From positions 124,001 to 188,000 of the forward strand of contig CANJBZ010000001.1 of NCBI GenBank assembly GCA_947473475.1: a DNA stretch of 64,000 nucleotides, written 5' to 3'. A program made the position numbers and the translations under genes. The notes below the pieces were generated by a model. That model made no database searches and was not told the DNA's origin. It worked only from the letters and a program-made list of their open reading frames with translations. The stretch is from Alphaproteobacteria bacterium (GTDB lineage: Bacteria; Pseudomonadota; Alphaproteobacteria; Micropepsales; Micropepsaceae). This document shows, one piece after another, positions 2,973-56,721 of this stretch; within the stretch, counting starts at the first letter, position 1; each line of letters opens with the position of its first letter.

Positions 2973-3737
2973 ATGTCAGAACTCCCGGGCCTGAACGTCT
3001 TAAGGAAATCCATGGCTTCTCAAGATTCCGTCCTGCCCCGTCTCGACGCCGTCGTGGACGATTTCTGCCGCCGCACGCGGTTCTTTACGGAGCCGATGAC
3101 GCCCGGCCGCGCGAAGATGTTTGTCTTCCAGCACCGGCAGAACACCCGGCATCGCAATTCGGTGTTGAAGCTGAAGGTCGCGACCAACTGTCCGGACTGG
3201 GACACGCGGTTGAGAATCATCGGCGCCTGCACGCAGGAGGTGATCGCCGACCACGAGCACGGCCACGGCAAGGCTCACTGGCAGATTCTGGAGGAGCTCG
3301 GGACGCACATTGGCCTCAGTCTCGAGGAAATCCGTGCCGCCAAGACATTGGACAGCACGCTCATCGCTTGGTCAGCATGGGAAGGGATGATGGCGAATCG
3401 CCACTGGTTGGAGGGAATTGTCGCCAACACCTGTGCCGAGCGCGCCAATGTGCCGGGTTATGGGGACGGCATTATCCGCCGGTCCGGCTGGTTTGGTCTG
3501 GAGCGTCACCGCTGGGGCGCGCTGTTCGGCCTGAACGATGCACAGCTCGATTTCTTTGAGCTGCACGAGCAGGCCGATATCGAGCACTCCGACATGGGCT
3601 GGCAGACCATCGCCAAATTTTCGCGCGACCTGCACATGGAGGATTTGGTGGTCGAAGCGTGCCGCCGCAACCTCCTGGTTTGGGAGCTGTATCTGAACGG
3701 CATTGCCGCCGGCGGAGACGCCCTCGACCGCACTTGA
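2973..3737 (+). CDS. Heme-oxygenase-fold diiron-type oxidase (TenA/PqqC/CADD-like)
   Basis: 254 residues. The ATG at 2973 is preceded by a strong GAGGGGGG ribosome-binding site; an upstream GTG at 2955 is less likely. The protein is helical and carries metal-ligand spacing known from CADD-like heme-oxygenase-fold diiron oxidases: Glu95 and His102 (seven apart), a possible central Glu156, and His198, Asp202 and His205 in a His-x3-Asp-x2-His motif (HEQADIEH). Enzymes of this superfamily oxidise or cleave small substrates with O2. TenA thiaminases and PqqC share the fold but not this ligand set, so an oxygenase role is favoured. It is the first gene of the catabolic cluster, 78 bases before an MFS gene. 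The substrate is unknown. Confidence 0.7.
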   Translation: MSELPGLNVLRKSMASQDSVLPRLDAVVDDFCRRTRFFTEPMTPGRAKMFVFQHRQNTRHRNSVLKLKVATNCPDWDTRLRIIGACTQEVIADHEHGHGKAHWQILEELGTHIGLSLEEIRAAKTLDSTLIAWSAWEGMMANRHWLEGIVANTCAERANVPGYGDGIIRRSGWFGLERHRWGALFGLNDAQLDFFELHEQADIEHSDMGWQTIAKFSRDLHMEDLVVEACRRNLLVWELYLNGIAAGGDALDRT

Positions 3738-3756
3738 CCCGCCGGGACAGGCCGAT

Positions 3757-3782
3757 TTTTTCCGTGTAGGATCGCGGAAAAA
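3757..3782 (+). other. Hairpin between diiron-type gene and MFS gene
   Basis: Inverted repeat with perfect 8-base arms (TTTTTCCG at 3757-3764, CGGAAAAA at 3775-3782) and a 10-base loop, in the 78-base gap between the genes at 2973 and 3816. It could be a processing or partial termination site that tunes expression of the downstream genes. It is not a typical intrinsic terminator, because the T run is on the 5' arm. Confidence 0.35.
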
Positions 3783-3815
3783 GGGGCCCAAAGGGTCCAA
3801 TCGGGAGGCGGTTTC

Positions 3816-5228
3816 ATGGCCAGGACGGTCGACGTCGCGGAAATCATCGATTCGCAGAAGGTCAGTTTTTATCAGTGCCTTATCGCGCTGCTGGCGTGGC
3901 TGACGCTGTTTCTGGACGGCGTCGATAACCAATCCATCGCCTATGTCGCGCCGGCGCTGACCAATGATTGGAGCTTGGCGCGGGGCGCGCTGAGAACTGT
4001 CTTTTCCTTCGGCGTTCTGGGCGTTGCCATCGGTGCGCTTGTTATCGGGCCGCTGGCCGACCGCTTCGGCCGCAAGCTGGTGACGGTTTTCACCGTTATA
4101 TACGTGGCGCTGTTTTCGCTGATCGTGACGCAAGTGCCTGAGATTTCGGCGCTGTTGTCGCCCGCTTTTCCCGCCGCCGGCAATCTGAACGTCCTAATGG
4201 TGCTGCGATTCCTCACCGGACTTGGCCTGGGCGCGGTTGTCCCGCTGGGCGTCGTCATCGTGAATGAATTCGCGCCGAAGCGCCGTCGCGCTGCGATGGT
4301 GACCCTGATGGGATGCGGCTATGCGATGGGGTCGGCCTCGGGCGGCGTTCTTGCCTCGCAAATCGTTCCGGTTTTTGGCTGGCAGGCGCAGTTCTACACG
4401 GCGGCCGTACTGACCCTGGCGATGGCGGTGGTCTTGTGGGCGTTCCTGCCGGAATCCATCCGCCACTTGACGGTGCAGGGGCGTACCGAGGGCGTCATCG
4501 CCATCCTGCGCAAAATCAACCCTGCACTCACCTTCGATAGAGATACCCATTTTGTGCTCCGTCAGGAGGCACGCGAACAGAGCGCGGACCGGTTCCGGCC
4601 CGCGCGTCTGTTCTTGGAGGGCCGCACACAGATCACCATCCTGATCTGGCTTTGTCTCTTCATGAACACGCTGGCGCTGAATTACCTGAACAACTGGCTG
4701 CCGACACTCACGACAGAAGCGGGACTGCCCGAAGCGCAGGCTCTGCGCGCCGCCGCGTTCCTCCAGTTTGGCGGCATGCTGGGCGTGATCACGCTGGGCT
4801 TCCTGGCCGATAGGTTTGGCTTTTACCGGGTGCTGGCGGGTTCCTTTGCCGGGGGCGGTGTTTTCATCGCGCTGATCGGCTGGGCGGGCGGATCGTTCGG
4901 CCCGCTGTCCTCCACGATCTTTGTCGCCGGCTTCTTCAACATTGGCACCCAGATCACCCTGGCCGCGCTGGCTGCTACGCTTTACCCGACGGATCTGCGC
5001 TCCACCGGCGTGAGCTGGGCGCATGGCGTGGCGCGCGTCGGCTCGATTATCAGCGTCATGTTCGCCGGCACTATGCTGGCGCTGCATTGGCCGCTGCAGA
5101 CCATGTATTTGCTCGTGTCGATTCCGATGTTCTTTGGCAGCTTGTGGGTCACGCTGCTGAGCAGCGCCCGCGCCAGGGCGACCGGAGCCGCAGCCGAGCC
5201 GGGGACCGCTCGCCGCGCCATGGCGTGA
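3816..5228 (+). CDS. MFS transporter, aromatic acid:H+ symporter (AAHS)-like, copy 1
   Basis: 470 residues, ATG preceded by GGGAGG. There are about 12 hydrophobic segments. The TM1 motif LFLDGVDNQS carries acidic residues, and the A-like loop motif GPLADRFGRK follows TM2. A second loop repeat GFLADRFGF lies in the C-terminal half. TM1 acidic residues and DRFGRK loops are typical of the AAHS family (PcaK/BenK type), which imports aromatic acids with protons. The next gene is a VOC protein 36 bases downstream. The pair is repeated at 6175-8363, so transporter and VOC protein probably act on related compounds. The substrate is unknown. Confidence 0.88.
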   Translation: MARTVDVAEIIDSQKVSFYQCLIALLAWLTLFLDGVDNQSIAYVAPALTNDWSLARGALRTVFSFGVLGVAIGALVIGPLADRFGRKLVTVFTVIYVALFSLIVTQVPEISALLSPAFPAAGNLNVLMVLRFLTGLGLGAVVPLGVVIVNEFAPKRRRAAMVTLMGCGYAMGSASGGVLASQIVPVFGWQAQFYTAAVLTLAMAVVLWAFLPESIRHLTVQGRTEGVIAILRKINPALTFDRDTHFVLRQEAREQSADRFRPARLFLEGRTQITILIWLCLFMNTLALNYLNNWLPTLTTEAGLPEAQALRAAAFLQFGGMLGVITLGFLADRFGFYRVLAGSFAGGGVFIALIGWAGGSFGPLSSTIFVAGFFNIGTQITLAALAATLYPTDLRSTGVSWAHGVARVGSIISVMFAGTMLALHWPLQTMYLLVSIPMFFGSLWVTLLSSARARATGAAAEPGTARRAMA

Positions 5229-5264
5229 AGCCCAACGCTTTTATATTGCAACTGGAGTTGTTGA

Positions 5265-6074
5265 ATGTTCGCTCAAATCAATCACTGCGCCATCATTAGT
5301 CACCAATACAATATGCTTTCGAAATTCTACGAGGCCGTGTTCGGGCTGAAATATTCGGCCTTTCGACTCGTCGATGCGCCGCTGGTATCCGACGGCTATG
5401 TCGGCATGCAATTGATTCCGCGCCGCGACGGCTATGTCGGCGGCATCGATCATTTCGGCATGGTGGTGGACGATGTCGAAACCGTGCTCGAACGCATGCA
5501 GAAGAAGCACACGAAAGCCAATGTCGTGAAGCGCCCCTCTACGCGCCCCTATGCGGCGTATAGCGGGCACGATCCGGACGGCAATGTGTTCGATCTCGCG
5601 GTGAAGAAGGAAGACAACCGCAAGGACCTCTACACCGAGATCGCGGAAAAGGGCTGGCACCAGGACCGCTACATCAACAAATTCGCGATTCGCACACCGA
5701 ATGCCGAACAATGCGCCGAGTTCTATGCCGACGTGTTCGAGCTGCAGACGGTGAACCGCAAGACGGACGCGCCGGGCTATCATTTGACCGACGGGCGGAT
5801 GACGCTGTCGATCCTGCCCTGGTCCATTCCGGTGTTCGAAGGCATGTCGATCAAGCGCCCCGGACCGGACCATCTAGGTTTCCACGTCGAAGATTTGGAC
5901 GCGTTCCAGAAACATGTGGCGGAAGTGGCGGGCGCCAACCCGTATCTTGCACCGGTACCGCTCGGCGGCAGTCCGGAATCGAACGTGCGTCGCGACTTCT
6001 TCCGCAAGAACGCCACCGGCAAATTGCAGATGACCGACATCGACGGCAACTGGCTCGACATCACCGACGAATAA
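5265..6074 (+). CDS. Two-domain VOC (extradiol dioxygenase/glyoxalase-fold) protein, copy 1
   Basis: 269 residues with two vicinal-oxygen-chelate halves. The N-terminal half has His7 (INHCAI), His63 (IDHFGM) and Asp110 (NVFDL) at the three metal-ligand positions. The C-terminal half has Lys139 (NKFAI), His203 (PDHLGF) and Asp265 (NWLDI). Classical type I extradiol dioxygenases use His-His-Glu in the C-terminal half. Here the acidic residue is Asp in both halves and the first C-terminal His is replaced by Lys, so an intact metal site is more likely in the N-terminal half. Close paralogues are at 7551, 11263 and 12066. Probably a ring-cleaving or related metal enzyme of the catabolic cluster; the reaction is unproven. 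Confidence 0.82.
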   Translation: MFAQINHCAIISHQYNMLSKFYEAVFGLKYSAFRLVDAPLVSDGYVGMQLIPRRDGYVGGIDHFGMVVDDVETVLERMQKKHTKANVVKRPSTRPYAAYSGHDPDGNVFDLAVKKEDNRKDLYTEIAEKGWHQDRYINKFAIRTPNAEQCAEFYADVFELQTVNRKTDAPGYHLTDGRMTLSILPWSIPVFEGMSIKRPGPDHLGFHVEDLDAFQKHVAEVAGANPYLAPVPLGGSPESNVRRDFFRKNATGKLQMTDIDGNWLDITDE

Positions 6075-6080
6075 TTCGGA

Positions 6081-6142
6081 TTTCCTCCCCTGCGGAGCGA
6101 AGCGCAGCGGGGGAGGGGGACCGCGTAGCGGTGGAGGGGGCG
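6081..6142 (+). repeat. GC-rich palindromic repeat unit (REP-like), intergenic
   Basis: It begins TTTCCTCCCC and ends GGAGGGGGCG, with internal hairpins around CGGAGCGAAGCGCAGCG and CCGCGTAGCGG. Related units occur at 8431, 13770, 31301-31426 (a pair inside dnaE2), 53026, 56011 and 63541. This one lies in the gap between VOC copy 1 and MFS copy 2. Confidence 0.8.
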
Positions 6143-6174
6143 ACAGCGCCTCCATTGTCATCCGACGAGGCTAT

Positions 6175-7533
6175 GTGAGCGACACAAGTACCATCGACGT
6201 CAATGACGTGATCGAAAGCCAGAAGCTTGGCCGATTCCAGATCGGCCTAGGGGCGTTGCTGCTGCTGTGCATGTTCGTCGATGGCTTCGAAGCGCAGGCG
6301 CCGGGTTTCGCGGCGCCCGCCATCATCCGCGACTGGCACATCCCGCGCGCGGCGATGGGGCTCGTCTTCGGCGCGGGTAATCTCGGCCTTATGCTGGGCG
6401 CGGTGCTTTTGGGTATCCTCGGCGATCGCTTCGGGCGCAAGCTCACCATCGTTGCCGGCTGCGTTCTGCTCGCCGCGTTCAGCTTTGCGACGATCTACGC
6501 CACCGACATTACAACGCTGCGCCTGCTACGGATTGGATCGGGTATCGGCGTCGGCGGCGTACTGCCCTCGGTGATTGCTCTGGGTACGGAATTTTCGCCC
6601 AAGCGGGTGCAGGCAACGACGATTTGGGTGCTGCTGATCGGCTATCAGGCGGGCGCCTCGTCCGGGGCGCTGATCTCGACCTTCTTGTTTGCGGAGTACG
6701 GTTGGCAGGTGATGTTTCTGATCGGCGCGGTTCTGCCGATCTTCGTCGCGCTACTCGTGCTGGCGCTGCTTCCGGAGTCCATCCGGTTTCTGTCTCTCGA
6801 TCCCGCAGCCCGCGACCGCATGGTCAAGGTCTTAAGCCGGATCGAGCCTGCGCTGGCTGGCCAAACTCAAGTGCGGCTGGTTGTGCGCGAGGAACAGAAG
6901 ACCGGCTTCCGGCTCGGTCATTTGTTCGCACAAGGGCGCGGCGCGTTCACGTTGATACTTTGGGCCGTTTACGTGGCCAATTTGATGGCGCTGCAATTCC
7001 TGCTGACATGGCTTCCGACCGTGCTGGAAAGCCCAAGCGTGCCGCGCGGCGTTGCCGCAACCGCCACAGTCCTGGTCCCGGTGGGCGGCATCGCAGGCGG
7101 ACTTATCCTCAGCCGCTTCCTCAATCGCGGCAGCATTCGGCCGATCGCCGTCGCCTTCGCATTGGGCGTTCCGATGGTGGCGCTTATCGGTTCGTCCGGC
7201 GGTTCGACGGCGCTTTTGATGCTGGCGACGTTCGGTGCGGGCTGCGCGGTGATCGGCGGCCAGACCAATCTTCATGCGGCGGCCGGGCGGTTTTATCCGA
7301 CGTTCATTCGCTCCAACGGCATCGGCTGGGCAAATGGCGTCGGGCGCATCGGCTCGATTTTGGGACCTGTAATCGGCGGCGTGCTGATCGGCATAGACCT
7401 GCCAAGCTCGCAGCTTTTTCTCTTTGCCGCGGTACCGCCGCTTTGCGCGGCCATTGCCTGCTTCGCGCTTGCCCGTCTGCAGAGCAACAGCGCGCCGGTC
7501 CGCGCGGCGCTTGCCGCCCAACCCAGCCATTAA
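6175..7533 (+). CDS. MFS transporter, AAHS-like, copy 2
   Basis: 452 residues from a GTG start with GACGAGG upstream. Its start region (TIDVNDVIESQKLGRFQ) closely parallels that of the MFS protein at 3816 (TVDVAEIIDSQKVSFYQ). It has 12 predicted membrane segments, a TM1 motif FVDGFEAQAPG, and a loop motif GILGDRFGRK. The second-half loop (LILSRFLNRG) is degenerate compared with copy 1. The VOC gene follows 17 bases after the stop, so the two are surely co-transcribed. It is likely an importer for an aromatic or related acid. The repeated MFS-VOC order with copy 1 indicates duplication of a two-gene cassette. Confidence 0.88.
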   Translation: MSDTSTIDVNDVIESQKLGRFQIGLGALLLLCMFVDGFEAQAPGFAAPAIIRDWHIPRAAMGLVFGAGNLGLMLGAVLLGILGDRFGRKLTIVAGCVLLAAFSFATIYATDITTLRLLRIGSGIGVGGVLPSVIALGTEFSPKRVQATTIWVLLIGYQAGASSGALISTFLFAEYGWQVMFLIGAVLPIFVALLVLALLPESIRFLSLDPAARDRMVKVLSRIEPALAGQTQVRLVVREEQKTGFRLGHLFAQGRGAFTLILWAVYVANLMALQFLLTWLPTVLESPSVPRGVAATATVLVPVGGIAGGLILSRFLNRGSIRPIAVAFALGVPMVALIGSSGGSTALLMLATFGAGCAVIGGQTNLHAAAGRFYPTFIRSNGIGWANGVGRIGSILGPVIGGVLIGIDLPSSQLFLFAAVPPLCAAIACFALARLQSNSAPVRAALAAQPSH

Positions 7534-7550
7534 TAATCGAAGGACGTTCC

Positions 7551-8363
7551 ATGTTTGCCCAGCTCAATCACATGGCCATCATCAGCCCGCATTATCCGAC
7601 GCTGGAAAAATTCTATCAGGCGGTTTTCGGATTGAAGCCCTCCAAGAGCCGCCGCCCCGGTTCGGCGGCAACGTGCGGCGATGGTTATGTCGGGCTCAAT
7701 CTCATTCCGCGCCGCGACGGTTATATCAGTGGCATCGATCATTTCGGCATCGCGGTGGACGATGTTGGCCCCGTGCTGGAGCGCATGCAGAAGAAACATA
7801 AATCCGCGAACATCGTGAAGCGTCCGTCCGCGCGGCCCTTCGCGGCTTATAGCGGGCACGACCCCGACGGCAATGTCTTCGATCTGGCGCAGAAAAAGGA
7901 CGATACCCGCAAGGAGGTCTATGCGGAGATTGCCGAGCAGGGCTGGGCGCAGGACCGCTACATCAACAAGTTCGCCATCCGCACGCCGAACGCGGAACAA
8001 TGCGCGGAGTTCTACGCCGACGTGTTCGAGCTACGTCCGGTGAATCGCAAGGCCGAGGCGCCGGGTTACCACCTGACGGATGGGCGAATGACGTTGTCGA
8101 TCCTGCCCTGGTCGATTCCGGCATTTGAAGGCATGTCCATCAAGCGCCCAGGACCGGACCACATTGGTTTTCACGTGGAAAATCTTGAAGCCTTCAAGGC
8201 GCATGTGGCCGAAGTGGCGGGGGCTAATCCTTATCTGGCGCCGGTACCGCTGGGCGGCGGCCCGGAATCGGACGTGCGCAAACGCTTCTTCCAGAAGAAC
8301 GCGACCGGCAAATGGCAGATGACAGACCCCGACGGCAACTGGATCGACGTGACGGACGAATAG
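7551..8363 (+). CDS. Two-domain VOC protein, copy 2
   Basis: 270 residues, very similar to the protein at 5265 over its whole length (for example GYVGLNLIPRRDGY and PWSIPAFEGMSIKRPGPDH). N-terminal ligands are His7 (LNHMAI), a second His in IDHFGI and Asp in NVFDL. In the C-terminal half the first position is again Lys (NKFAI), followed by His in PDHIGF and Asp in NWIDV. Two close copies, each behind its own MFS gene, suggest paralogues adapted to slightly different substrates. It is the last gene before a 175-base gap containing repeats. Confidence 0.82.
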   Translation: MFAQLNHMAIISPHYPTLEKFYQAVFGLKPSKSRRPGSAATCGDGYVGLNLIPRRDGYISGIDHFGIAVDDVGPVLERMQKKHKSANIVKRPSARPFAAYSGHDPDGNVFDLAQKKDDTRKEVYAEIAEQGWAQDRYINKFAIRTPNAEQCAEFYADVFELRPVNRKAEAPGYHLTDGRMTLSILPWSIPAFEGMSIKRPGPDHIGFHVENLEAFKAHVAEVAGANPYLAPVPLGGGPESDVRKRFFQKNATGKWQMTDPDGNWIDVTDE

Positions 8364-8374
8364 CGGAAGGGCCT

Positions 8375-8414
8375 GCGTGCTTCGAGGCTCGCTTCGCGAG
8401 CGCCTCAGCATGAC
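8375..8414. repeat. Short alphaproteobacterial-type palindromic repeat
   Basis: A CGTGCTTCGAG...CCTCAGCATGACG element around a GCTCGCTTCGCGAGC stem. A similar element in the opposite orientation is at 51447-51490. Elements of this appearance are common in alphaproteobacterial intergenic DNA. Confidence 0.65.
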
Positions 8415-8430
8415 GGATATCGTGTAAGGC

Positions 8431-8484
8431 TCCTCCCCTGCGCAGCGGGGGAGGAGGACCATGCGAAGCATGGTGGAGGGGGCG
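8431..8484 (+). repeat. GC-rich palindromic repeat unit (REP-like)
   Basis: Unit of the TCCTCCCC...GGAGGGGGCG family. It has a first stem CCTCCCCTGCGCAGCGGGGGAGG (split: CCTCCCCTGCG and CAGCGGGGGAGG) and a second stem CCATGCGAAGCATGG. It lies in the gap between VOC copy 2 and the hydrolase gene. Confidence 0.8.
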
Positions 8485-8537
8485 CGGACGGCGCATGACA
8501 TGCTAAGAACGCACAAACGCTACCAGAGGAGATGAGC

Positions 8538-9398
8538 ATGAGCGACGCTCTCATGACGCGCATGCAGGACAAGTTCGTCACCGTTGATGGGCTGAAGCTG
8601 CGCTACATCGAAGAAGGTGAAGGTCCCGCGGTCATTCTGCTGCATGGCGCATCGCTGGGTTCTTCGGCGGATGTCTTCATCCGCAATATCGGTCCTCTCG
8701 CCCGCGCCGGTTTCCGTGCCATTGCGTTCGACCAGCCCGGCTTCGGTCTTTCCGATGTGCCCACCGATTTATCACCTGCCTATCGGCGCGACAGCATTCC
8801 CAAATTCATGGATGCGCTGGGGCTGAAGCAGGCCGCGCTCGTCGGCCATTCTCAGGCCGGCAATCCGGCGGTGCAGCTCGCGCTGGCCGAGCCGTCGCGT
8901 TATTCGCATATTGTCGTGCTGGGAACGGGAAGCCTTCTGCCGCCGCTCGACGGCGAAGCCGATGGGAATGAAGGTGCTGTTCAGCAACGGTTGGAACGCC
9001 GTATGGCGCAAGCCGAACCCACTATCGACGACACACGCAAGCTGCTCGAAGCCAATCTCTTCCACCACGAGCTGATTACGCCCGATGAATTGATGCTGCG
9101 TCACGCCCGCAGCATCGGACAGAACTTCCTGGCCTTTGTCGCGCGCAATGAAGCGGCGGAAGCCTCGCCGCCCAAACAGCCGAAAACGCCGCTCTGGCAG
9201 CGTTTGACCGAATTGAAAATGCCGCTGCTTATGATCTTTGGCCGCGAAGACCGCGCCAAAGCCGCCGAGCGCGCCACGTTGCTGAAGGAAAAGCTTCCGC
9301 AGCTTGATGTGCACATCGTCAATGGCTGCAAACATCTGGTGCCCTGGGATGCGGCGGACGACTTTATCCGTCTTGCCGTTCCGTTTTTGAAAGCTTGA
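8538..9398 (+). CDS. Alpha/beta hydrolase (meta-cleavage-product hydrolase-like)
   Basis: 286 residues. The ATG at 8538 is preferred because AGAGGAG lies six bases before it; an ATG at 8532 abuts that site. The fold signatures are oxyanion loop LLHGASLG, nucleophile elbow GHSQAG (Ser about 105), acid FGREDR (Asp about 238) and catalytic His in NGCKHLVPWD (about 266). Size and motifs suit hydrolases that cleave C-C or ester bonds in ring-fission products, which fits the neighbouring VOC proteins. The ThDP-enzyme gene follows 13 bases downstream. General esterase or epoxide hydrolase activity remains possible. Confidence 0.82.
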   Translation: MSDALMTRMQDKFVTVDGLKLRYIEEGEGPAVILLHGASLGSSADVFIRNIGPLARAGFRAIAFDQPGFGLSDVPTDLSPAYRRDSIPKFMDALGLKQAALVGHSQAGNPAVQLALAEPSRYSHIVVLGTGSLLPPLDGEADGNEGAVQQRLERRMAQAEPTIDDTRKLLEANLFHHELITPDELMLRHARSIGQNFLAFVARNEAAEASPPKQPKTPLWQRLTELKMPLLMIFGREDRAKAAERATLLKEKLPQLDVHIVNGCKHLVPWDAADDFIRLAVPFLKA

Positions 9399-9411
9399 AG
9401 CGGAGTCCTTC

Positions 9412-11130
9412 GTGACCACAAAGACCATTGAATCCGGCACCGTTGCCGACGCTTACCTCGCGCTGCTGGCGGACCGAGGTATCGATTATCTGTTTGCCAA
9501 TGCTGGCACCGATTTTGCGCCGCTCATTGAGGCTTACGCCAAAGCACAAGTGCTCGGCACCAAAGTCCCTAAGCCCATCACCGTGCCGCATGAGAACGTC
9601 GCCATCGCCATGGCGCAGGGCTATTACCTGAAAACCGGACGGCCGCAGGCGGTGATGGTGCATGTGAATGTCGGCACGGCCAATGCGCTTTGCGGCATCA
9701 TCAATGGCTGGCGCGGCAATATCCCCGTGCTGTTCACGGCGGGACGCACGCCCTATTCCGAAGAAGGCGGGCTGATGGGCATGCGCAGCGGCGAAATTCA
9801 TTGGCCGCAGGAAATGCGCGATCAGCGCGCCATGCTTCGCGAATTCGTCAAATGGGATTACGAACTGCCCAACGTCGAGACGATGGAAACAGCGGTCGAC
9901 CGGGCGCTCAACATCGCGATGTCCGAACCGATGGGGCCGGTTTACATGACCCTGCCGCGCGAAACGCTGGCCGCTCCCATTTCCAATTACCGCTTTTCAT
10001 CGCCATCGCGCCACGCGACGCCGTCGCCGGCGTTCCCCGACACCAACGCGGTCGACCGCGCCGCCGATATGCTGGCGGCGGCCGAATTTCCGCTCATCAT
10101 CACGCGCGCGGCCGGCCGCATGGAAGCCGATGTCGCAAAGCTTGCGGCGTTGGCGGAACGATTCGCCATTCCCGTCTTCGAGCGCAAGCATCATTACATG
10201 TCGATGCCCTGGAACAGCCCCATGCATCTCGGGAACAACCCGGAAGCCTATTTCGATATTGCCGACGTAATTGTGGTGCTGGAAGCCGATGTGCCGTGGG
10301 TGCCCAAGCACAAAGCGCCGCGTCCCGATTGCAAAATCATCCACATCGGCGCCGATCCGATTTTCGAGAATTATCCGTTGCGCGGTTTCCCGTGCGATCT
10401 GGCAATCACCGGAATCGCCGGCGCGACCCTGCCCGCTTTGTCCGAAGCATTGGTGGCGCGGGAAAAGGCGGCGTCATCCCGGATTGAGTCGCGTCGGCGC
10501 AAATTGGCGGAAGCGCGCGACAAGCTGAACGCTCGGATCGCCACCAGTTTGGAGAAGGTGAGGAATTCCTCGCCCATTCATCCGGGCTGGATCAACCACT
10601 GCATCAACCAGGTGCGGGGCGAAGACGGCATTGTCGTCAAGGAAGCACTGACGCCTTCGGAGCATATGCATTTCAACAAGCCCGGTACCTTTTATTCGCT
10701 GGGGCAGGGCGGGGCGCTGGGCTGGGGGCTGGGAACGGCGCTCGGCATGAAGGCGGGTGCGCCGGATAAACTGGTGATCTGCGCTATCGGCGACGGCTCG
10801 TACATGTTCGCCAATCCGATACCAGCGCATTATGTTGGGAAGGCGGAAAAGCTCCCCACGCTGACGGTGATCTATAACAACGAAATGTGGAACGCCGTCC
10901 GCCGCAACACGCGCGATGTCTATCCGGACGGTTACGCCGCCAAGAGCAATCGCGAGCCGCTGACCTATTTCGAGCCCGGCACGCATTTCGAGAAAGCGGT
11001 GGAAGCGGTCGACGGTTACGGCGAGACGGTAAACCGCTCCGATGAACTGCCCGCCGCGATGGACCGCGCCGTCGATCAAGTCGCGCGCGGCCGGCAGGCT
11101 GTGCTCAACGTGGTGTGCGGGACGGGTTAA
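9412..11130 (+). CDS. ThDP-dependent enzyme of the acetolactate synthase/benzoylformate decarboxylase superfamily
   Basis: 572 residues from a GTG start. The N-terminal pyrimidine-binding domain has the conserved Glu61 (VPHENVAIAMAQGYY), which activates the cofactor. The central domain follows, and the C-terminal PP domain holds the ThDP motif, GDG at 460-462 through IYNNEMWN. The protein probably decarboxylates or ligates a 2-oxo acid. No small regulatory subunit gene is nearby, so a biosynthetic acetolactate synthase is unlikely. In this context it may process a 2-oxo acid released by ring cleavage. It is the last gene of the plus-strand run 2973-11130 and converges with the VOC pair that ends at 11263. 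Confidence 0.85.
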   Translation: MTTKTIESGTVADAYLALLADRGIDYLFANAGTDFAPLIEAYAKAQVLGTKVPKPITVPHENVAIAMAQGYYLKTGRPQAVMVHVNVGTANALCGIINGWRGNIPVLFTAGRTPYSEEGGLMGMRSGEIHWPQEMRDQRAMLREFVKWDYELPNVETMETAVDRALNIAMSEPMGPVYMTLPRETLAAPISNYRFSSPSRHATPSPAFPDTNAVDRAADMLAAAEFPLIITRAAGRMEADVAKLAALAERFAIPVFERKHHYMSMPWNSPMHLGNNPEAYFDIADVIVVLEADVPWVPKHKAPRPDCKIIHIGADPIFENYPLRGFPCDLAITGIAGATLPALSEALVAREKAASSRIESRRRKLAEARDKLNARIATSLEKVRNSSPIHPGWINHCINQVRGEDGIVVKEALTPSEHMHFNKPGTFYSLGQGGALGWGLGTALGMKAGAPDKLVICAIGDGSYMFANPIPAHYVGKAEKLPTLTVIYNNEMWNAVRRNTRDVYPDGYAAKSNREPLTYFEPGTHFEKAVEAVDGYGETVNRSDELPAAMDRAVDQVARGRQAVLNVVCGTG

Positions 11131-11140
11131 TATAAAAACT

Positions 11141-11254
11141 CACCATGGCCGGGCCTGACCCGGCCACCTAGCGCGCCCGCGTCTGCGGGCGCAAAAGAGT
11201 TATTGGCTCGCGGACGCTCGCCGCTGGATGGCCGCTACGGAGGGCGGCCATGGT
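11141..11254. repeat. Inverted-repeat element between convergent genes
   Basis: About 114 bases bounded by CACCATGGCC at 11141-11150 and its exact complement GGCCATGGTG at 11245-11254. Inside are further hairpins (GGCCGGGCCTGACCCGGCC; GCGCCCGCGTCTGCGGGCGC). It fills the gap between the ThDP gene and VOC copy 3 and may also act as a bidirectional terminator. Confidence 0.7.
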
Positions 11255-11262
11255 GATGGATA

Positions 11263-12066
11263 TTACTCCGCGACGTCGATGTGGACGCCTTCGATGTCGG
11301 TGAGCTGGAAACAACCGAGCGGGCATTTTTGCAGCAGCTTCAGGCGCGCTTCGCCTTCCGAGCCGTAGCCAAGCGGGCGGCCGTGCATATGCGGGTTTTC
11401 GCCGATCAGGAATTCCATGTCCTTCTTCACCTGCTCCAGGGATTCGACGGTGAAGCCGAGATGGTCGAGCCCGGTGCGCGCCGGGTCCTGCGCGTAATAG
11501 TCGGTGATCTTCCAGGGAATGATCATCAGCGTGACGCGGCCGTCCGTGAGATAGAAATTCCCATCATTGAAACGGTTCTCGGCCTTTAGCCCGAACACCT
11601 CCACGTAGAACTCGGCGCATTTTTCGGCGTGCCGCGTGCGCAGCGCGATGTGGCTGATGCGGCGCGGGGGCAAAGCCTCGCCGGTGTTTTCGGCGTAGAC
11701 GTCTTTTTGAAAACCGATATTCCGCTGTGACAGATCGAAAATGTTCACGTCTGGATCGTGTCCGCTATAGGCGGCATAGGGGCGGATCGGCGGACGCTTC
11801 ACGGCCTCCAGCGTGGAATCGAATTTTTTGATGCGCGCCAGCGTGTCTTCCAGATCGTCCACTTCGAGGCCGAAATGGTCCATCCCCGAATAACGCCCCT
11901 CGCGGCGGGGAATGCAATTCAAGCCGACATAGCCATCGCCCACCACAACCGAGCGCGCGGGCCGCGGCTTGCTGGACGGCTTCATGCCGAACAGAGATTC
12001 GTAAAACTTTCCGTTCAGCGCGTACTGATCGGACGCGATGGCAACATGATTGACCCGAGTGGCCAT
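11263..12066 (-). CDS. Two-domain VOC protein, copy 3
   Basis: 267 residues. The ATG at 12066 overlaps the stop of copy 4 (TAATG), implying translational coupling. N-terminal ligand positions are His (VNHVAI), His (MDHFGL) and Asp (NIFDL). Unlike copies 1 and 2, the C-terminal half keeps His at the first position (ISHIALRT), with His in LDHLGF and Asp in HIDVAE. It is closest to copy 4 at 12066-12887 (shared PYAAYS.HDPD, NIGFQKDVYAE and GENPHMHGRPLGYGSEG). Likely a metal-dependent ring-cleaving or related enzyme; the reaction is unproven. Confidence 0.82.
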   Translation of the reverse strand: MATRVNHVAIASDQYALNGKFYESLFGMKPSSKPRPARSVVVGDGYVGLNCIPRREGRYSGMDHFGLEVDDLEDTLARIKKFDSTLEAVKRPPIRPYAAYSGHDPDVNIFDLSQRNIGFQKDVYAENTGEALPPRRISHIALRTRHAEKCAEFYVEVFGLKAENRFNDGNFYLTDGRVTLMIIPWKITDYYAQDPARTGLDHLGFTVESLEQVKKDMEFLIGENPHMHGRPLGYGSEGEARLKLLQKCPLGCFQLTDIEGVHIDVAE

Positions 12067-12887
12067 TATTGCGCTCCGCCGTTGGCGACGTCGATGCAGA
12101 CGCCTTCGATATCCGTGAAATGGTGGCAGCCGAGCGGGCATTTTTGCAGCAGTTGCAGCCGCGCTTGGCCCTCCGAGCCATACCCGAGCGGCCGTCCGTG
12201 CATGTGCGGATTTTCCCCAATCAGAAATTCCAGATCGTTCTTCACGGCGTCCACGCTTTCGACTTTGAAGCCGATGTGGTCAAGACCCGTGCGTGCCGGG
12301 TCCATGCCGTAATAATCGCTCATCCGCCACGGAAAGACGGCGAGCGTCACGCGTCCATCCGACAGATAATAATTCGGATCGCCTTCCTGCCGGTTCAGCA
12401 GCGAAAGGCCGAACACGTCCGCATAGAACTGCGCGCAGCGTTCCGCATTGCGCGTGCGTAGCGCGATATGGCTGATGTGGCGGGGGCGCACAGCTTCACC
12501 GTCGTTCTCCGCGTAGACGTCTTTCTGGAAGCCGATATTGCGCTGCGACAGGTCGAAAATATTGGTATCGGGATCGTGCGCGCTATAGGCGGCATAGGGC
12601 CGGATGGGGGGGCGCTTCAGGGCCTGCAATTCGGGATCGAATTTCTGCATCCGCGCAATCGTGTCTTCCAGATCGTCCACTTCCAGGCCGAAATGATCCA
12701 GCCCGCTGCTGCGTCCGTCCCGGCGCGGAATATGTGTCATGCCGACATAGCCATCGCCCAGCGAAATCGCGCGGGCGGGCGGCAGCGTGCGCTTGCCTGG
12801 AGTCATGCCGAACAGCGCCTGATAAAAGCGCGCATTCATGGCGTAATGGTCGCTGGTGATGGCGACGTGGTTGATGCGCGCTGGCAT
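12066..12887 (-). CDS. Two-domain VOC protein, copy 4
   Basis: 273 residues with a GAGGGAGG ribosome-binding site before the ATG. Candidate ligands are His7, His65 and Asp112 in the first half, and His140, His204 and Asp266 in the second. It is the first gene of a two-gene minus-strand operon with copy 3. Its promoter must lie in the 179-base divergent gap shared with the DUF2848 gene at 13067. The His-His-Asp sets in both halves differ from the usual His-His-Glu of extradiol dioxygenases. Confidence 0.82.
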   Translation of the reverse strand: MPARINHVAITSDHYAMNARFYQALFGMTPGKRTLPPARAISLGDGYVGMTHIPRRDGRSSGLDHFGLEVDDLEDTIARMQKFDPELQALKRPPIRPYAAYSAHDPDTNIFDLSQRNIGFQKDVYAENDGEAVRPRHISHIALRTRNAERCAQFYADVFGLSLLNRQEGDPNYYLSDGRVTLAVFPWRMSDYYGMDPARTGLDHIGFKVESVDAVKNDLEFLIGENPHMHGRPLGYGSEGQARLQLLQKCPLGCHHFTDIEGVCIDVANGGAQ

Positions 12888-13066
12888 CGCGGCCTCCCTC
12901 TATTCTTATGAGGCCAGTCTAGCCAAATTCAGCCCGTAAGTATGCGCGGTGAAGCGTCACCGGCCGCGGGGCCGGGGCTTGGTCTCGTGAGCATCGCATC
13001 CGATTTGACCGGGTGCTTGCCGCCATGCGAAACCGGGCATGACGTGCAATTTTCGGGTGGACGCCG

Positions 13067-13759
13067 GTGACAACGCACATTCTGCAGCTGAAACTCCAGA
13101 TGGGGTACACGCAAGCCGGCTCCGGCGATGTGGCGATCGAGCAGGCGATCATCGCCGGCTGGACGGGACGCGACGCGGAAGCCGTCGAAAAGCACATTAG
13201 GGAATTGGAAGTGCTTGGCGTTAAGCGCCCGGCGACGACGCCGATCTTTTACCGCGTCGCTGCCGCGCGGCTGACCACGGATAGCGTCATCGAAGTTCTG
13301 GGCGGGCAATCATCGGGCGAAGCCGAATTCGTGCTGCTGCAGACCCTAGGTGAGCTTTGGATCGGGACGGGGTCTGACCACACCGACCGCGAAGTCGAGG
13401 CTTATGGCGTCTCTGTCTCAAAGCAGATGTGCGAAAAGCCCATCGCGCCGCTGTTCTGGCGCTATGCGGAAGTGGCTGGGCATTGGGACAGTTTGATCTT
13501 GCGCTCCCATGCCGTGATCGGCGGTCAGCGCGTGCTGTATCAGGAAGGATCGGTTGCCGCGATGCGTCATCCGGACGATCTGATCGGGCGCTATGCCAAA
13601 GGCGGGCTTGCCGAGGGTACGCTGATGTTCTGCGGAACGCTGGCGGTGCATGGCGGCTTGCGTCCGGCGGAGCGGTTCGAGTTCGAGCTCGAAGACCCGG
13701 TGCTCCACCGCAAGATCGCTCACGGGTATGATGTGGTAAGCCTTCCAATTCTGGGATGA
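13067..13759 (+). CDS. DUF2848 family protein
   Basis: 230 residues from a GTG start. The order of conserved pieces fits the DUF2848 family: VEKHIRELEVLGVKRP, SDHTDREVEAYGVSVSKQ, HWDSLILRS, and a C-terminal stretch FCGTLAVHGGLRPAERFEFE resembling the fumarylacetoacetase/hydratase fold. The biochemical role of this family is not established. It starts a plus-strand run (DUF2848, cupin, amidase, binding protein) that reads away from VOC copies 3 and 4. Proximity to the amidase suggests work on an amide- or acid-containing catabolite; this is inference. Confidence 0.75.
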   Translation: MTTHILQLKLQMGYTQAGSGDVAIEQAIIAGWTGRDAEAVEKHIRELEVLGVKRPATTPIFYRVAAARLTTDSVIEVLGGQSSGEAEFVLLQTLGELWIGTGSDHTDREVEAYGVSVSKQMCEKPIAPLFWRYAEVAGHWDSLILRSHAVIGGQRVLYQEGSVAAMRHPDDLIGRYAKGGLAEGTLMFCGTLAVHGGLRPAERFEFELEDPVLHRKIAHGYDVVSLPILG

Positions 13760-13769
13760 GTTCAGACCG

Positions 13770-13822
13770 CGCCCCCTCCGGTCGCTGCGCGACCACCTCC
13801 CCCGCAATGGCGGGGGAGGAAA
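13770..13822 (-). repeat. GC-rich palindromic repeat unit (REP-like), reversed
   Basis: A reversed copy of the family: CGCCCCCTCC at the left, GGGGGAGGAAA at the right, with stems GGTCGCTGCGCGACC and CCTCCCCCGCAATGGCGGGGGAGG (split as CCTCCCCCGC and GCGGGGGAGG). Its GGAGGAAAG end lies about 20 bases before the cupin start. Confidence 0.8.
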
Positions 13823-13840
13823 GTAGATGAGATATCCCCC

Positions 13841-14227
13841 ATGCCGATGAACAAACCGCATTTGGAATTTCAGCGTCTGGATATGGAGGCGGGCTGGGCG
13901 ACGCCGGAGGGTTACCCGCCGGGGATCAAGCAGAAGATTCTCGCGAGCGACATCAGCGAGAGAAACAAAAGCGGCAGCCGCACGCGCCTGTTGCGTTTCG
14001 ATCCGGGCGCTTTCACCACCGCGCCGTTCGTCCACGATCATTGGGAAGAGGTTTATCTGCTGTCCGGCGATCTGATTGTCGGCAATGACGATCAGGGCAA
14101 GGGCGGCGAGAAATTCCTGAGCCCCACCTATGCCTGCCGTCCGCCGGGCGCATTTCATGGGCCGTTCAAATCGGATGGCGGCTGCATGCTCTATGAAATC
14201 CACTATTACGACGAAAGCGGCAAATAG
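13841..14227 (+). CDS. Cupin-domain protein
   Basis: 128 residues; an internal ATG at 13847 is an equally possible start. The single cupin core is visible as HDHWEEVYLLSGDLIVG, the HxH...E metal-binding motif 1, followed by the second motif around PPGAFHGPF. It resembles ChrR-like cupins and small cupin oxygenases or isomerases. The amidase start lies one base after its stop, so the genes are co-translated. Its role in the pathway is unknown. Confidence 0.75.
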   Translation: MPMNKPHLEFQRLDMEAGWATPEGYPPGIKQKILASDISERNKSGSRTRLLRFDPGAFTTAPFVHDHWEEVYLLSGDLIVGNDDQGKGGEKFLSPTYACRPPGAFHGPFKSDGGCMLYEIHYYDESGK

Positions 14228-14228
14228 C

Positions 14229-15563
14229 ATGTGGCCGTTTCACACCGAACTTGCATCGTTCGCTTCCGGTAAAGATTCGCCGAGCGATTTCCTGGAATCC
14301 TGCATCGCCTGCATCAAAGAGCACGAGCCCGAGGTCGGCGCTTTCGTGCATATGGATTTGGATGCGGCGCGGGAAGCTGCGGCGCGTTCCTCCGCGCGCT
14401 GGAAAGACGGCAAGCCGCTTTCAAAAATCGACGGCATGCCGGTCGGCATCAAGGACATCGTTGAAACGATCGATATGCCGACCCAAATGGGCTCGCCGCT
14501 TTATCAGGGCTGGCAGTCCGGCCGTGACGCGGCCACCGTTGCGGCCTTGCGCGAAGCGGGCGCGGTAATTGTCGGCAAAACGGTTACCACCGAATTCGCC
14601 GCCACCTTCCCTGGCGGCACGCGTAATCCTTGGGACAAGACGCGGACGCCGGGTGGATCGAGCAGCGGTTCGGCTGCGGCGGTAGCAGCCGGTATGCTTC
14701 CGGCCGCGCTCGGTACGCAGGTGGTTGGCTCCATCATCCGGCCCGCCAGCTTTTGCGGCTGCGTGGGTTTCAAGCCCAGCGTCGGCGCGATTAATCGCGG
14801 CGGCAGTCACGACGCCTTCTCGCAAAGCTGCGATGGTGTGTTGGCGGCCAGTCTGGAAGATGCGTGGCATTTCTGTTGGGTGATTGCGCAGCGCGCGGGT
14901 GGCGATCCGGGCTACCCGGGGCTCGCAGGACCGGAAACCTGCCCGAATGCCAGACAGCCCCTAACGCTGGCCGTGCTGGAAACGGCCGGTTGGGAGTTGG
15001 CATCCGCTTCCGCCAAGGCGGCGTTTGAGGCGGTCACAGAACAGTTGCGCGATGCCGGTGTCGCTATCGTCAGTGCAAGCAACAATTACGTGGTGGAAGA
15101 GGTCGAACGCGAAATCGATAAGGCACGTTCGATCACCGACCGGGTCAATGCCTGGGAAGCACGCTGGCCGCTGAACACCTATCGCAGCAAGAACGCGAGC
15201 GGCCTCAGCAAGATTATGCTGGACCGATTGGCATTGGCCGAGTCGATGCGTATCGAGGATTACCGCCGCGCCCTGATCGAGCGCAGCCGTGCCCGCGCCG
15301 GGTACGCGAAGCTTGCAGGGCTCGCCGATGCGGCGATCACGCTGTCCGCGACGGGCGCGGCGCCGGTTGGTTTGGCATCGACAGGCAATCCGATTTTTGC
15401 CGTTGCCGGTTCGATGCTCGGCATACCCGCGATCTCGCTTCCGGTCATGGAAGACGAAGGCCTGCCGCTCGGTTTGCAACTGATGGGCTTTGAGCAGCAG
15501 GACGCGCCGCTGTTCGCGATTGCCGTCTGGATGCGCGATTCCCTCGCGGAGCGTAAGGTATGA
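14229..15563 (+). CDS. Amidase-signature family amidohydrolase
   Basis: 444 residues from the ATG at 14229; a longer frame overlapping the cupin gene is rejected. The catalytic triad is visible: Lys75 (GIKDIVET), the cis-Ser near 144 (PGGSSSGSAAAVAAG) and the nucleophile Ser168 (QVVGSIIRPASFCG). The 24-residue spacing between the two Ser matches the family. It should hydrolyse a small amide, so the pathway substrate may contain nitrogen. Its stop overlaps the next start by four bases (ATGA). Confidence 0.88.
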   Translation: MWPFHTELASFASGKDSPSDFLESCIACIKEHEPEVGAFVHMDLDAAREAAARSSARWKDGKPLSKIDGMPVGIKDIVETIDMPTQMGSPLYQGWQSGRDAATVAALREAGAVIVGKTVTTEFAATFPGGTRNPWDKTRTPGGSSSGSAAAVAAGMLPAALGTQVVGSIIRPASFCGCVGFKPSVGAINRGGSHDAFSQSCDGVLAASLEDAWHFCWVIAQRAGGDPGYPGLAGPETCPNARQPLTLAVLETAGWELASASAKAAFEAVTEQLRDAGVAIVSASNNYVVEEVEREIDKARSITDRVNAWEARWPLNTYRSKNASGLSKIMLDRLALAESMRIEDYRRALIERSRARAGYAKLAGLADAAITLSATGAAPVGLASTGNPIFAVAGSMLGIPAISLPVMEDEGLPLGLQLMGFEQQDAPLFAIAVWMRDSLAERKV

Positions 15564-16480
15564 AGCTCGCCGTTCCCGACGTCATTTCCAATTCCTATTT
15601 TCCTGCCGCCGCGGCGATCGAATTGGGTTTCTTCCGCGAGGAAGGGCTCGACGTCTCCCTGGAGATGATCTTCCCTGTCGACAAAGCCTATGCCGCATTG
15701 CGCGATGGCGCGGTGGATTTTGTCGGCGGCTCCTCGCATTCGGCGCTCGCCGCTTTTCCGGAATGGCAGGGCGCAAAGCTTCTCTGTGCGCAGGCGCAGG
15801 GCATGTATTGGTTCTTCGTCATGCATAAGGACCTGAACGCACAGCGCGGCGATGTATCGGTGGTTAAAGGCAAGAGCATTGGCGCTGCCCCTTGGGTGGA
15901 AATGGGATTGCGCCGGTTGCTGATCGAAGCGGGCATCGATCTGGCGCGTGATGGGGTCAAGATCGCGCCGGTCCCTGGCGCCCAAGGTGCGGGCGTCAAT
16001 TTCGGCGTGACCGCCGCGAAAGCTCTAGAAGAGCGCAAGATCGACGGATTTTGGGCCAACGGCATGGGCGCGGAAGTCGCGGTACGGCGCGGCGTCGGAA
16101 CGGTGGTGCTCGACGTGCGCCGCGGCGACGGTCCGAAGCCATGCTTCAACTACACAATGGCGTCCATCGCGACGACCGATGCGTTAATCGCCCGTGCGCC
16201 CGAGACGGCGGCCGCGGCTGTGCGAGCCATCGTTAAGACGCAGAAGGCTCTGCGCGCGAATCCAGAACGCGCCACCGAGGTTGGGCAGAAATTATTTCCT
16301 GCCTCCGAGGCGTCTCTGATTGCGGAACTGATACGTCGCGACTTGCCGTTCTACGATGCCTCCATCACGCCAGGGTTCGTGAGCGGCATGAATCAATTCG
16401 CGCGCGACATCGGCATCCTCAAGGGCAATCCCCGGTACGAGGATGTTGTCGCCACGCAATTCGCGCCGCTGTGGACGTGA
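15560..16480 (+). CDS. SsuA/THI5/NMT1-like binding protein without signal peptide
   Basis: 306 residues. It starts directly with MKLAVPDVISNSYFPAAAAI, the first strand of the mature NMT1/THI5-like periplasmic-binding-protein fold, and continues with AIELGFFREEGLDV, both typical of the family. No hydrophobic N-terminal signal is present, and no ABC permease or ATPase gene is adjacent. It may therefore be cytosolic, either a sensor or a catalytic/suicide protein as in THI5, or it may be exported by another route. It is translationally coupled to the amidase. Confidence 0.78.
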   Translation: MKLAVPDVISNSYFPAAAAIELGFFREEGLDVSLEMIFPVDKAYAALRDGAVDFVGGSSHSALAAFPEWQGAKLLCAQAQGMYWFFVMHKDLNAQRGDVSVVKGKSIGAAPWVEMGLRRLLIEAGIDLARDGVKIAPVPGAQGAGVNFGVTAAKALEERKIDGFWANGMGAEVAVRRGVGTVVLDVRRGDGPKPCFNYTMASIATTDALIARAPETAAAAVRAIVKTQKALRANPERATEVGQKLFPASEASLIAELIRRDLPFYDASITPGFVSGMNQFARDIGILKGNPRYEDVVATQFAPLWT

Positions 16481-16565: not shown

Positions 16566-16757
16566 ATGCTGAATGTCATTCGTCTTCCAATCAAGGAAGC
16601 TTTCGCGGCGGGTCAAGCCGCATGCGCCGATGGATTGCCGCTGTCCGAAAATCCCTTCTCGCCCGGTGGCTTCGACTACACCCAATGGGTGCTCGGCCAT
16701 CAGTGGGGATTACCCGGTGGCAAGACGCGTGCCGTCAATAGGGGCGCCCGCCTTTAG
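16566..16757 (+). CDS. Small protein, possibly RMF/CrpP-like
   Basis: 63 residues, GGGGAG before the ATG. The pattern AFAAGQAACADGLPLSENPF followed by QWVLGHQWG resembles ribosome modulation factor/CrpP-like proteins (AxxxG...G.....CPY....W..G...G). The similarity is weak, and a function in ribosome hibernation is only a suggestion. It ends four bases inside the convergent egtD stop region. Homologues with conserved length would confirm it as a gene. Confidence 0.45.
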   Translation: MLNVIRLPIKEAFAAGQAACADGLPLSENPFSPGGFDYTQWVLGHQWGLPGGKTRAVNRGARL

Positions 16758-17719
16758 GCCGCTTCCAGCCAGTGAATACTGAATAGGTTTTCTGGATCGC
16801 GCCACACCGCACGCGGTGTAAAGCCGGCGGACACCGCCAGCGTGCGGAAGCCATCGATCGTATATTTGTGCGAGCTTTCCGTGTGGATGGCTTCGCCTTC
16901 AGAAAAAGCGATCATTTCCCCACAAACCGAAACGCGCTGCGCCCGGCGGCTGATCAAGTACATTTCGATGCGCTGCGGCACGGGGTTGTAAATCGCGTAG
17001 TGCGAAAAGGCCGTAAGATCGAAAGCCGCCCCGATTTCGCGATTAGCGCGCGCCAGAAGATTTTTGTTGAACGCTGCTGTCACACCTGACGGATCGTTAT
17101 AGGCGGCGTGAAGGATGGCGGGGTCCTTCACCAAGTCCACGCCAATCAATAGACCGCCGCCTCGTAACGTCCTCGCAGCCTTTGCCAGAAAAGCGCGGGC
17201 CTCTTCCGGTTCGAAATTGCCGATGGTCGAGCCGGGGAAAAATCCGGCCCGTCTCGATGCGGACGGCGGCAAAACGATCTCGCGCGTGAAATCCGCAACC
17301 AACGGACGGATGGCGAGCGCGGGAAAATCGGACCGCAGCCCCTCGGCGATCTCCTGCAAATAAGGCCCTGAAATATCGATAGGCACATAGGCTTGCGGTG
17401 TGTGCAACGCGCGCAACAGCGGCCTGATTTTTTCAGCGGCGCCCGCGCCATACTCGACGATTTCCGCATCGGGGCCGATCAGCGCAGCCATTTCCGCGGC
17501 GTGCTTGTTCAGCAGCCCGAGCTCCACGCGCGTGGGATAATATTCGGGCAGCGTGCAAATCTGTTCGAATAGGCGCGAGCCCTCGGCATCGTAGAAAAAC
17601 TTGCACGGAATGAATTTGGGCTGGCTGGACAGCCCGGCGAGCAGCGCGCCCGCGTAATCCGTCTCTGGGGCCTGTGCTGCGCGCGTGCCGATCGCGGCAA
17701 TGCGGGGACGCATCCTCAT
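16754..17719 (-). CDS. egtD: L-histidine N-alpha-methyltransferase EgtD
   Basis: 321 residues from the ATG at 17719, which overlaps the egtB stop (ATGA). It is a SAM-dependent methyltransferase. LSSQPKFIPCKFFYDAEGS (two adjacent pieces, LSSQPKFIPCKF and FYDAEGS) and LPEYYPTRVELGLL form the substrate-binding front part, VEYGAGAAEKI is the SAM motif, and FPGSTIGNFEP and ISGPYLQEIA follow. EgtD trimethylates histidine to hercynine, the first step of ergothioneine synthesis. Length and motifs match the family. It is paired with EgtB. Confidence 0.93.
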   Translation of the reverse strand: MRMRPRIAAIGTRAAQAPETDYAGALLAGLSSQPKFIPCKFFYDAEGSRLFEQICTLPEYYPTRVELGLLNKHAAEMAALIGPDAEIVEYGAGAAEKIRPLLRALHTPQAYVPIDISGPYLQEIAEGLRSDFPALAIRPLVADFTREIVLPPSASRRAGFFPGSTIGNFEPEEARAFLAKAARTLRGGGLLIGVDLVKDPAILHAAYNDPSGVTAAFNKNLLARANREIGAAFDLTAFSHYAIYNPVPQRIEMYLISRRAQRVSVCGEMIAFSEGEAIHTESSHKYTIDGFRTLAVSAGFTPRAVWRDPENLFSIHWLEAA

Positions 17720-18993: not shown

Positions 18994-19101
18994 AAGGCTC
19001 GACCTGGTGCATTGCGTTCCCCTTCCAGGCCCAGCGGCCCGGTGGAGAGCATTAACGCACTCAGGCGGCAATTGTGCCAGCCCAGCCTTGGGTGAGCCTG
19101 T

Positions 19102-39883: not shown

Positions 39884-39916
39884 ATCAGCCCCAAGGTTTG
39901 ATTGGTTACGACGCCG

Positions 39917-56010: not shown

Positions 56011-56061
56011 TTTCCTCCCCCGTTACGGGGAGGTGGCGCGCGAAGCGCGACGGAGGGGGCA
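56011..56061 (+). repeat. GC-rich palindromic repeat unit (REP-like) between cofE and cofC
   Basis: TTTCCTCCCCCGTTACGGGG, then a stem around GCGCGCGAAGCGCG and the usual GGAGGGGGC end. It sits between convergent stops and may also separate the transcripts. Confidence 0.8.
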
Positions 56062-56075
56062 CTGGCCGGAAATAA

Positions 56076-56714: not shown

Positions 56715-56721
56715 GGCCGGA

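Follow-up and report, generated by a model that had tools for sequence, protein, structure and literature searches.

Gene order at the locus

The window analysed here is a stretch of 64,000 nucleotides from an alphaproteobacterium of the family Micropepsaceae (assembly GCA_947473475.1, contig CANJBZ010000001.1, positions 124,001 to 188,000 of the forward strand); its positions 2973-16480 carry a cluster of genes centred on four two-domain VOC proteins and two MFS transporters (Table 1). An earlier note, made from the letters alone, had placed an MFS, a VOC, an MFS and a VOC gene in one line at 3816-8363, and a further VOC pair at 11263-12887. Reading frames, families and order were borne out for the line of four, and the second pair was found as described, on the minus strand. 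The four VOC proteins score 49.9, 67.6, 57.6 and 61.9 bits (VOC1 to VOC4) with PF00903, for which the cut-off is 20.6. The note's count of four related copies holds for the window; the genome total is five, the fifth being at C1:242173-242976. VOC2 starts with the ATG at 7551, within a larger frame of 579 codons, and VOC3 and VOC4 share one base of overlap. On the plus strand, the intergenic gaps from the HDO to the ThDP gene are 13-168 bp, and HDO is probably the first gene of an operon.

Table 1. Genes of the VOC cluster, with their positions in the window and the basis of each assignment (ThDP, thiamine diphosphate; pLDDT, predicted local distance difference test)
Gene and product	Position	Strand	Basis
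HDO, haem-oxygenase-like iron redox enzyme	2973..3737	+	PF14518 35.2 bits, cut-off 28.9
MFS1, aromatic acid/H+ symporter-like	3816..5228	+	TIGR00895 328.5 bits, below cut-off 418.55; sister is the C28 MFS of the same genome
VOC1, two-domain VOC protein, subfamily A	5265..6074	+	PF00903, pairwise identity, tree
MFS2, aromatic acid/H+ symporter-like	6175..7533	+	TIGR00895 310.6 bits, below cut-off; L018 orthologue 64% identical
VOC2, two-domain VOC protein, subfamily A	7551..8363	+	PF00903, tree; AlphaFold2 mean pLDDT 92.0
ABH, alpha/beta hydrolase like meta-cleavage-product hydrolases (HsaD/BphD/XylF)	8532..9398	+	PDB sequence match HsaD, E 8.2e-31
ThDP-dependent enzyme, PRK08327 family	9412..11130	+	NF006203 686.3 bits, cut-off 456
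VOC3, two-domain VOC protein, subfamily B	11263..12066	-	pairwise identity, tree
VOC4, two-domain VOC protein, subfamily B	12066..12887	-	tree; AlphaFold2 mean pLDDT 91.3
DUF2848 protein	13067..13759	+	PF11010 273 bits; neighbour of VOC4 conserved across the genus (synteny)
Cupin_7 protein	13841..14227	+	PF12973 31 bits, cut-off 27
Amidase	14205..15563	+	PF01425 241 bits; synteny
SBP, NMT1/THI5-like binding-protein-fold protein	15560..16480	+	PF09084 42.4 bits, cut-off 20.5

The transporters and the VOC proteins have separate histories

The note had interpreted the line of four as a duplicated transporter-plus-VOC cassette, with the start regions of the MFS proteins and the VOC proteins clearly paralogous. 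Over their full length, VOC1 and VOC2 are 78% identical, VOC3 and VOC4 72%, and members of different pairs 45-47%, all far above chance, so that paralogy stands for the VOC proteins; it does not hold to the same degree for MFS1 and MFS2, which are only 34% identical over 435 residues. When the DNA of the two MFS+VOC stretches is compared, the strong match is confined to the VOC part (685 bp, 81%) and the next piece is 68 bp long. At their starts, MFS1 and MFS2 both match the TIGR00895 and PcaK profiles from position 1 onward, so we read their likeness there as a general trait of their transporter family.

Proteins from other bacterial families outscore the MFS pair for both of its members, against the expectation that the two copies would be closer to each other than to distant proteins. 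Among 115 class-level genomes, MFS1 gives 319.5 bits with the C28 MFS of its own genome (43% identical), 291.6 and 277 bits with proteins from two other bacterial families and 240.8 bits with MFS2; MFS2 gives 314.6 and 297.8 bits with those two families and 241.6 bits with MFS1. In a tree of 16 MFS proteins (one duplicate row removed by name, repeated translations entered once), MFS1 and its orthologue from locus L015 are sister to the C28 protein with support 100/99, and forcing MFS1 and MFS2 with their orthologues into one clade is rejected by the approximately unbiased (AU) test (p-AU 0.00133). In the VOC tree, by contrast with the MFS pair, the VOC1 and VOC2 lineages are sisters; a duplicated cassette, for which both pairs should be mutual closest relatives, was rejected on the MFS side. 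MFS1 and MFS2 are not mutual closest relatives and arrived separately.

The gene order in relatives leads to the same point (L and G numbers denote our loci and genomes). L015 (G001, same genus) reads HDO-MFS1-VOC1-VOC2-ABH-ThDP, then VOC3 and VOC4 in reverse, then DUF2848-cupin-amidase-SBP; L018 (G005, same genus) reads HDO-VOC1-MFS2-VOC2-ABH. The VOC1-VOC2 pair is therefore common to the relatives and the transporters vary: instead of genomes with one cassette, which the note had proposed to look for, synteny turned up genomes with both VOC genes and a single transporter. L015 and L018 each have an HDO orthologue, 78-79% identical, in the corresponding position. In L047 and L049, the amidase match is absent between SBP and cupin. 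Next to HDO, the window has a gene for a LuxR-type regulator with an autoinducer-binding domain (1759-2571), without a match in L015 or L018.

A true but very ancient duplication of an MFS+VOC cassette, whose MFS copies evolved far faster than its VOC copies, would account for the MFS-VOC-MFS-VOC order and for MFS1 and MFS2 belonging to one transporter family. Between the window and L015, however, MFS1 is 72% and VOC1 84% identical, a modest gap in rate, and 34% versus 78% is therefore out of scale. With the C28 protein as the nearest relative of MFS1 found and the one-clade arrangement rejected, we regard such a duplication as highly improbable.

Two old VOC subfamilies, each doubled

A tree of 77 VOC proteins falls into three clades, A (32 members), B (28) and C (17); its midpoint root serves for drawing only. 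The set was made without the duplicate loci L069-L072, L074, L075 and L078, without VOC pieces shorter than 240 amino acids (including L036, the second L020 hit, the split B copy of L032, the second L047 copy and L051) and without the L025 C copy at 9616-10422. Clade A takes in VOC1 and VOC2, clade B has VOC3 and VOC4, and the genome's fifth VOC protein belongs to C. Since the A and B pairs lie in separate clades together with members from distant genomes (100/100 and 100/99), the idea that the four VOC genes are one local expansion had to be abandoned. Within A, VOC1 groups with copies from L015 and L018, and VOC2 with copies from L015, L018, L016 and L017; the doubling thus predates the split of the genus, with no homogenisation of the copies since. 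Both subfamilies are old, and in each the doubling is earlier than the divergence of the genus. The ratio of nonsynonymous to synonymous substitution rates (dN/dS) was 0.09-0.28 in the 10 pairs compared (the L018 pair, with a dS of 3.17, is close to saturation), and VOC1-4 are under purifying selection.

Loci L084 and L103 (genomes G244 and G333) hold pairs of two-domain VOC genes that have diverged much further (35-42% identity with C members) and are perhaps a further subfamily. In L032 (9179-9974), a B-type VOC gene is spread over two overlapping frames, through either a genuine frameshift or faulty assembly.

Predicted metal residues and fold of the VOC proteins

The N domain carries a complete set of His, His and an acidic residue within one VOC domain, as expected for the superfamily: H7, H64 and D111 are aligned in 72 of the 77 proteins, and the remaining five read INHMAM, which puts their His a little before the chosen trimmed start. 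This is the predicted metal set. The C-domain H-H-D set varies with the subfamily: none of the 32 A proteins has it, against 22 of 28 in B and 6 of 17 in C. All 32 A proteins have K-H-D, R-H-D or K-H-V instead, position 140 being always Lys or Arg. The C-domain H-H-E set of type I extradiol dioxygenases is absent from all 77.

The whole-length models of VOC2 and VOC4 each show two tandem VOC domains per chain, as in type I extradiol dioxygenases, and the nearest solved chains are catechol 2,3-dioxygenases for both (VOC2: Z 19.2, root-mean-square deviation 3.3, 229 residues aligned; VOC4: Z 19.1, 3.3 and 226). A predicted fold shared with extradiol dioxygenases demonstrates no function.

Several known systems resemble the VOC proteins in part. 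The type I extradiol dioxygenases (XylE, BphC, HsaC) have the closest solved fold, with two VOC domains per chain, and XylE of pWW0 has a meta-cleavage-product hydrolase as gene neighbour just as the VOC genes here have the hydrolase-like ABH. Unlike them, our proteins have the invariant metal set in the N domain and not in the C domain, with Asp for Glu; in subfamily A the C-domain set is missing its first His, and we found no meaningful full-length sequence match. XylE has His153, His214 and Glu265, which we take to be its metal-holding residues, in its C domain; H7/H64/D111 were likened to them by motif position, not by alignment. BphC-SD3, a type I enzyme, has its iron in the C domain, at H145/H205/E256 (PMC6880040). 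The single-domain metalloenzymes FosA, methylmalonyl-CoA epimerase and glyoxalase I share the full His-His-carboxylate set in one domain and give weak profile matches; the VOC proteins here differ from them in having two domains fused, in the Asp at the third position of the set and in their catabolic setting. In FosA, the metal residues are His7, His64 and Glu110. In LinE and PcpA, the metal site is mixed between the N and C domains. These two (chloro)hydroquinone dioxygenases are ring-cleaving members of the VOC superfamily outside the main type I lineage (PMC4250580). In the open-licence literature, we found no description of the VOC family formed by A, B and C.

Distribution and gene neighbours

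At an E-value of 1e-30, the VOC family was detected in 4 of 61 genomes (the window's own and 60 relatives), all of one genus; of 385 genomes sampled across the class, 7 had it, each with at least two copies, and in a phylum-wide sample of 398 only the window's own did. A search of a plasmid collection by tblastn with VOC2 gave no match, and PADLOC matched neither VOC2 nor VOC4. Of 31 named assemblies, 21 have A as well as B, a count made by hand, with L052 (28%, partial) excluded, on what are mostly contig pieces, so that cases with a single subfamily are possibly incomplete; the search patterns were built on A and B proteins, and a genome whose sole subfamily is C would escape them.

Of 73 VOC genes in 38 loci (the window's own four are excluded from both counts), 41 have a TctC-type gene no more than 400 bp away, and such neighbours occur in 22 of the loci. 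The order C, B, TctC, A, all in one direction, occurs in eight of the 38 loci (L019, L028, L030, L037, L038, L039, L040 and L043), L016 and L017 have an additional TctC-like gene beside a VOC gene, and the genome's own C copy (L077) is also flanked by a TctC-type gene. The arrangement resembles that of the window in that a transport-type gene adjoins a VOC gene, the difference being that the A and B genes of this genus have MFS transporters in the place of the TctC/Bug solute-binding proteins; no TctC-type gene was found within 400 bp of the same-genus A and B genes (L015, L018, L044, L047, L049 and L073). The pairing of a transport gene with a VOC gene recurs across the family with the transport class swapped: it is an association, not a copied cassette. 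L019 (3854-10810) and L040 (3814-10810) contain islets made of VOC (C, C, B, A) and TctC genes only; the L019 islet is located between the lpxI/lpxB and citrate synthase genes.

The C copy, about 105 kb from the window's VOC genes, is beside a gentisate/3-hydroxybenzoate cluster: about 3.5 kb away is a gene for gentisate 1,2-dioxygenase (TIGR02272) and about 2 kb away one for 3-hydroxybenzoate 6-monooxygenase (PRK08163), both above cut-off.

As for the other products of the cluster, TIGR00895 is the top-scoring model for both transporters, and neither reaches its curated cut-off. ABH scores 131 bits with NF045632 (cut-off 400) and is 29% identical to the pWW0 hydrolase, its nearest relatives being HsaD and BphD; the PDB relatives of the ThDP enzyme are headed by benzoylformate decarboxylases. 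Of 42 examined sequence sets, 11 contain an ABH-type gene and 6 the ThDP gene. In L050, from Roseiarcaceae bacterium H3SJ34-1, a relative that appears to be an isolate, the ABH gene accompanies a VOC gene of subfamily A. The NMT1/THI5-like protein has no obvious signal peptide, its start being judged by eye from the sequence. For DUF2848, no paper was found in the open-licence literature.

Elsewhere in the window are the ergothioneine genes egtD and egtB (16754-19071, above cut-off), with genes of the same clusters lying past SBP in L047 and L049 as well; a UbiD-family decarboxylase (39008-41401; TIGR00148, 271 bits, above cut-off), which adjoins a gene resembling, by eye, fumarylacetoacetate hydrolase; an LLM-class oxidoreductase (49264-50265); and the coenzyme F420 genes cofE, cofD, cofH and cofG (55258-60083), each above its NCBIfam cut-off (TIGR01916, TIGR01819, TIGR03551 and TIGR03550).

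Proposed role of the cluster

The reading that we favour, and to which we give about an even chance, is that of a cluster for aromatic-acid breakdown built on an unnamed two-domain VOC family whose members cleave the ring oxygenolytically. An aromatic acid would be imported by MFS1 or MFS2; His7, His64 and Asp111 of the VOC N domain would hold a metal ion (Fe or Mn) that binds a ring diol and O2, and the ring might then be opened by analogy with type I extradiol dioxygenases. ABH would split a C-C bond of the product and the ThDP enzyme may act on the resulting oxo-acid. Ring cleavage followed by C-C hydrolysis is proposed because ABH is like the meta-cleavage-product hydrolases and because the C copy is near gentisate/3-hydroxybenzoate genes. 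Subfamilies A and B, being present together in most genomes, probably act jointly or in sequence, and the additional VOC copies plausibly broaden the substrate range. The earlier suggestion of several related substrates is plausible to the extent that it links the genes with uptake of related aromatic substrates, and fails where it invokes a single local expansion.

Several observations weigh against ring cleavage. No member of the VOC family found has a characterised activity. Those extradiol models that gave any match remain far under their cut-offs (catechol_2_3: 25.9 bits for VOC3 and 24.5 for VOC4 versus 320.2; HpaD: 26.3 for VOC3 versus 321.4), VOC1 and VOC2 are not among the matches of either, and a PDB sequence search with VOC2 gave nothing convincing. 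The link to XylE by hhalign is weak (59-72% probability over 87-88 columns) and joins the VOC C domain to the N domain of XylE, whereas the metal residues of XylE are in its other domain; for the VOC N domain, there was no usable alignment to XylE. Asp stands in the place of the usual Glu in the metal set. The genes inspected, LuxR through SBP, include no ring-hydroxylating oxygenase that would supply the diol, and the VOC genes of L019 and L040 are accompanied by TctC genes alone, without ABH or ThDP genes. Sites found in a scan for promoters and terminators were no commoner than in shuffled sequences, and the operon limits are not supported by it.

The main rival, possible though clearly behind ring cleavage in our estimate, gives the VOC proteins a metal-dependent isomerase, epimerase or lyase activity instead of an oxygenase one; like glyoxalase or methylmalonyl-CoA epimerase, they would convert an oxo-acid of the pathway. 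Weak matches to YaeR-like, methylmalonyl-CoA epimerase, ArsI/CadI and lactoylglutathione lyase models, none of which reaches its cut-off, agree with this rival, as do PDB profile matches headed by glyoxalase and epimerase chains (E 0.0007-0.003) and the 2-hydroxyacid dehydrogenase and ketopantoate-reductase-like genes among VOC neighbours elsewhere; yet the nearest full-length folds are those of extradiol dioxygenases, for whatever fold alone can say about function, and it is a meta-cleavage-product-hydrolase-like gene that adjoins the VOC genes. It is improbable that some copies are non-catalytic and bind or sequester a compound, like the drug-binding VOC proteins, together with a solute-binding or transport partner: the many TctC-type neighbours, the further TctC-like genes of L016 and L017 and the VOC/TctC-only islets would fit, but the invariant N-terminal His-His-Asp points to a putative metal in every copy. 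Somewhat less doubtful, and still unlikely in our judgement, is an elaboration of the ring-cleavage scheme in which A, B and C form a separate ring-cleaving VOC lineage with its active site shifted to the N-terminal domain, A (C-domain site lost, with Lys or Arg for His) and B (mostly two full sites) form a hetero-complex, and each unit is tied to its own solute-binding or MFS gene.

To conclude, the story of a local duplication gives way to an unnamed VOC family, the subfamilies of which come in pairs or triplets and the metal set of which occupies the domain that carries no such set in extradiol dioxygenases. The members found are nearly all from metagenome-assembled alphaproteobacteria. If the VOC proteins do cleave aromatic rings, then theirs would be a ring-cleavage route that present annotation models overlook, because those that match score far below their cut-offs.

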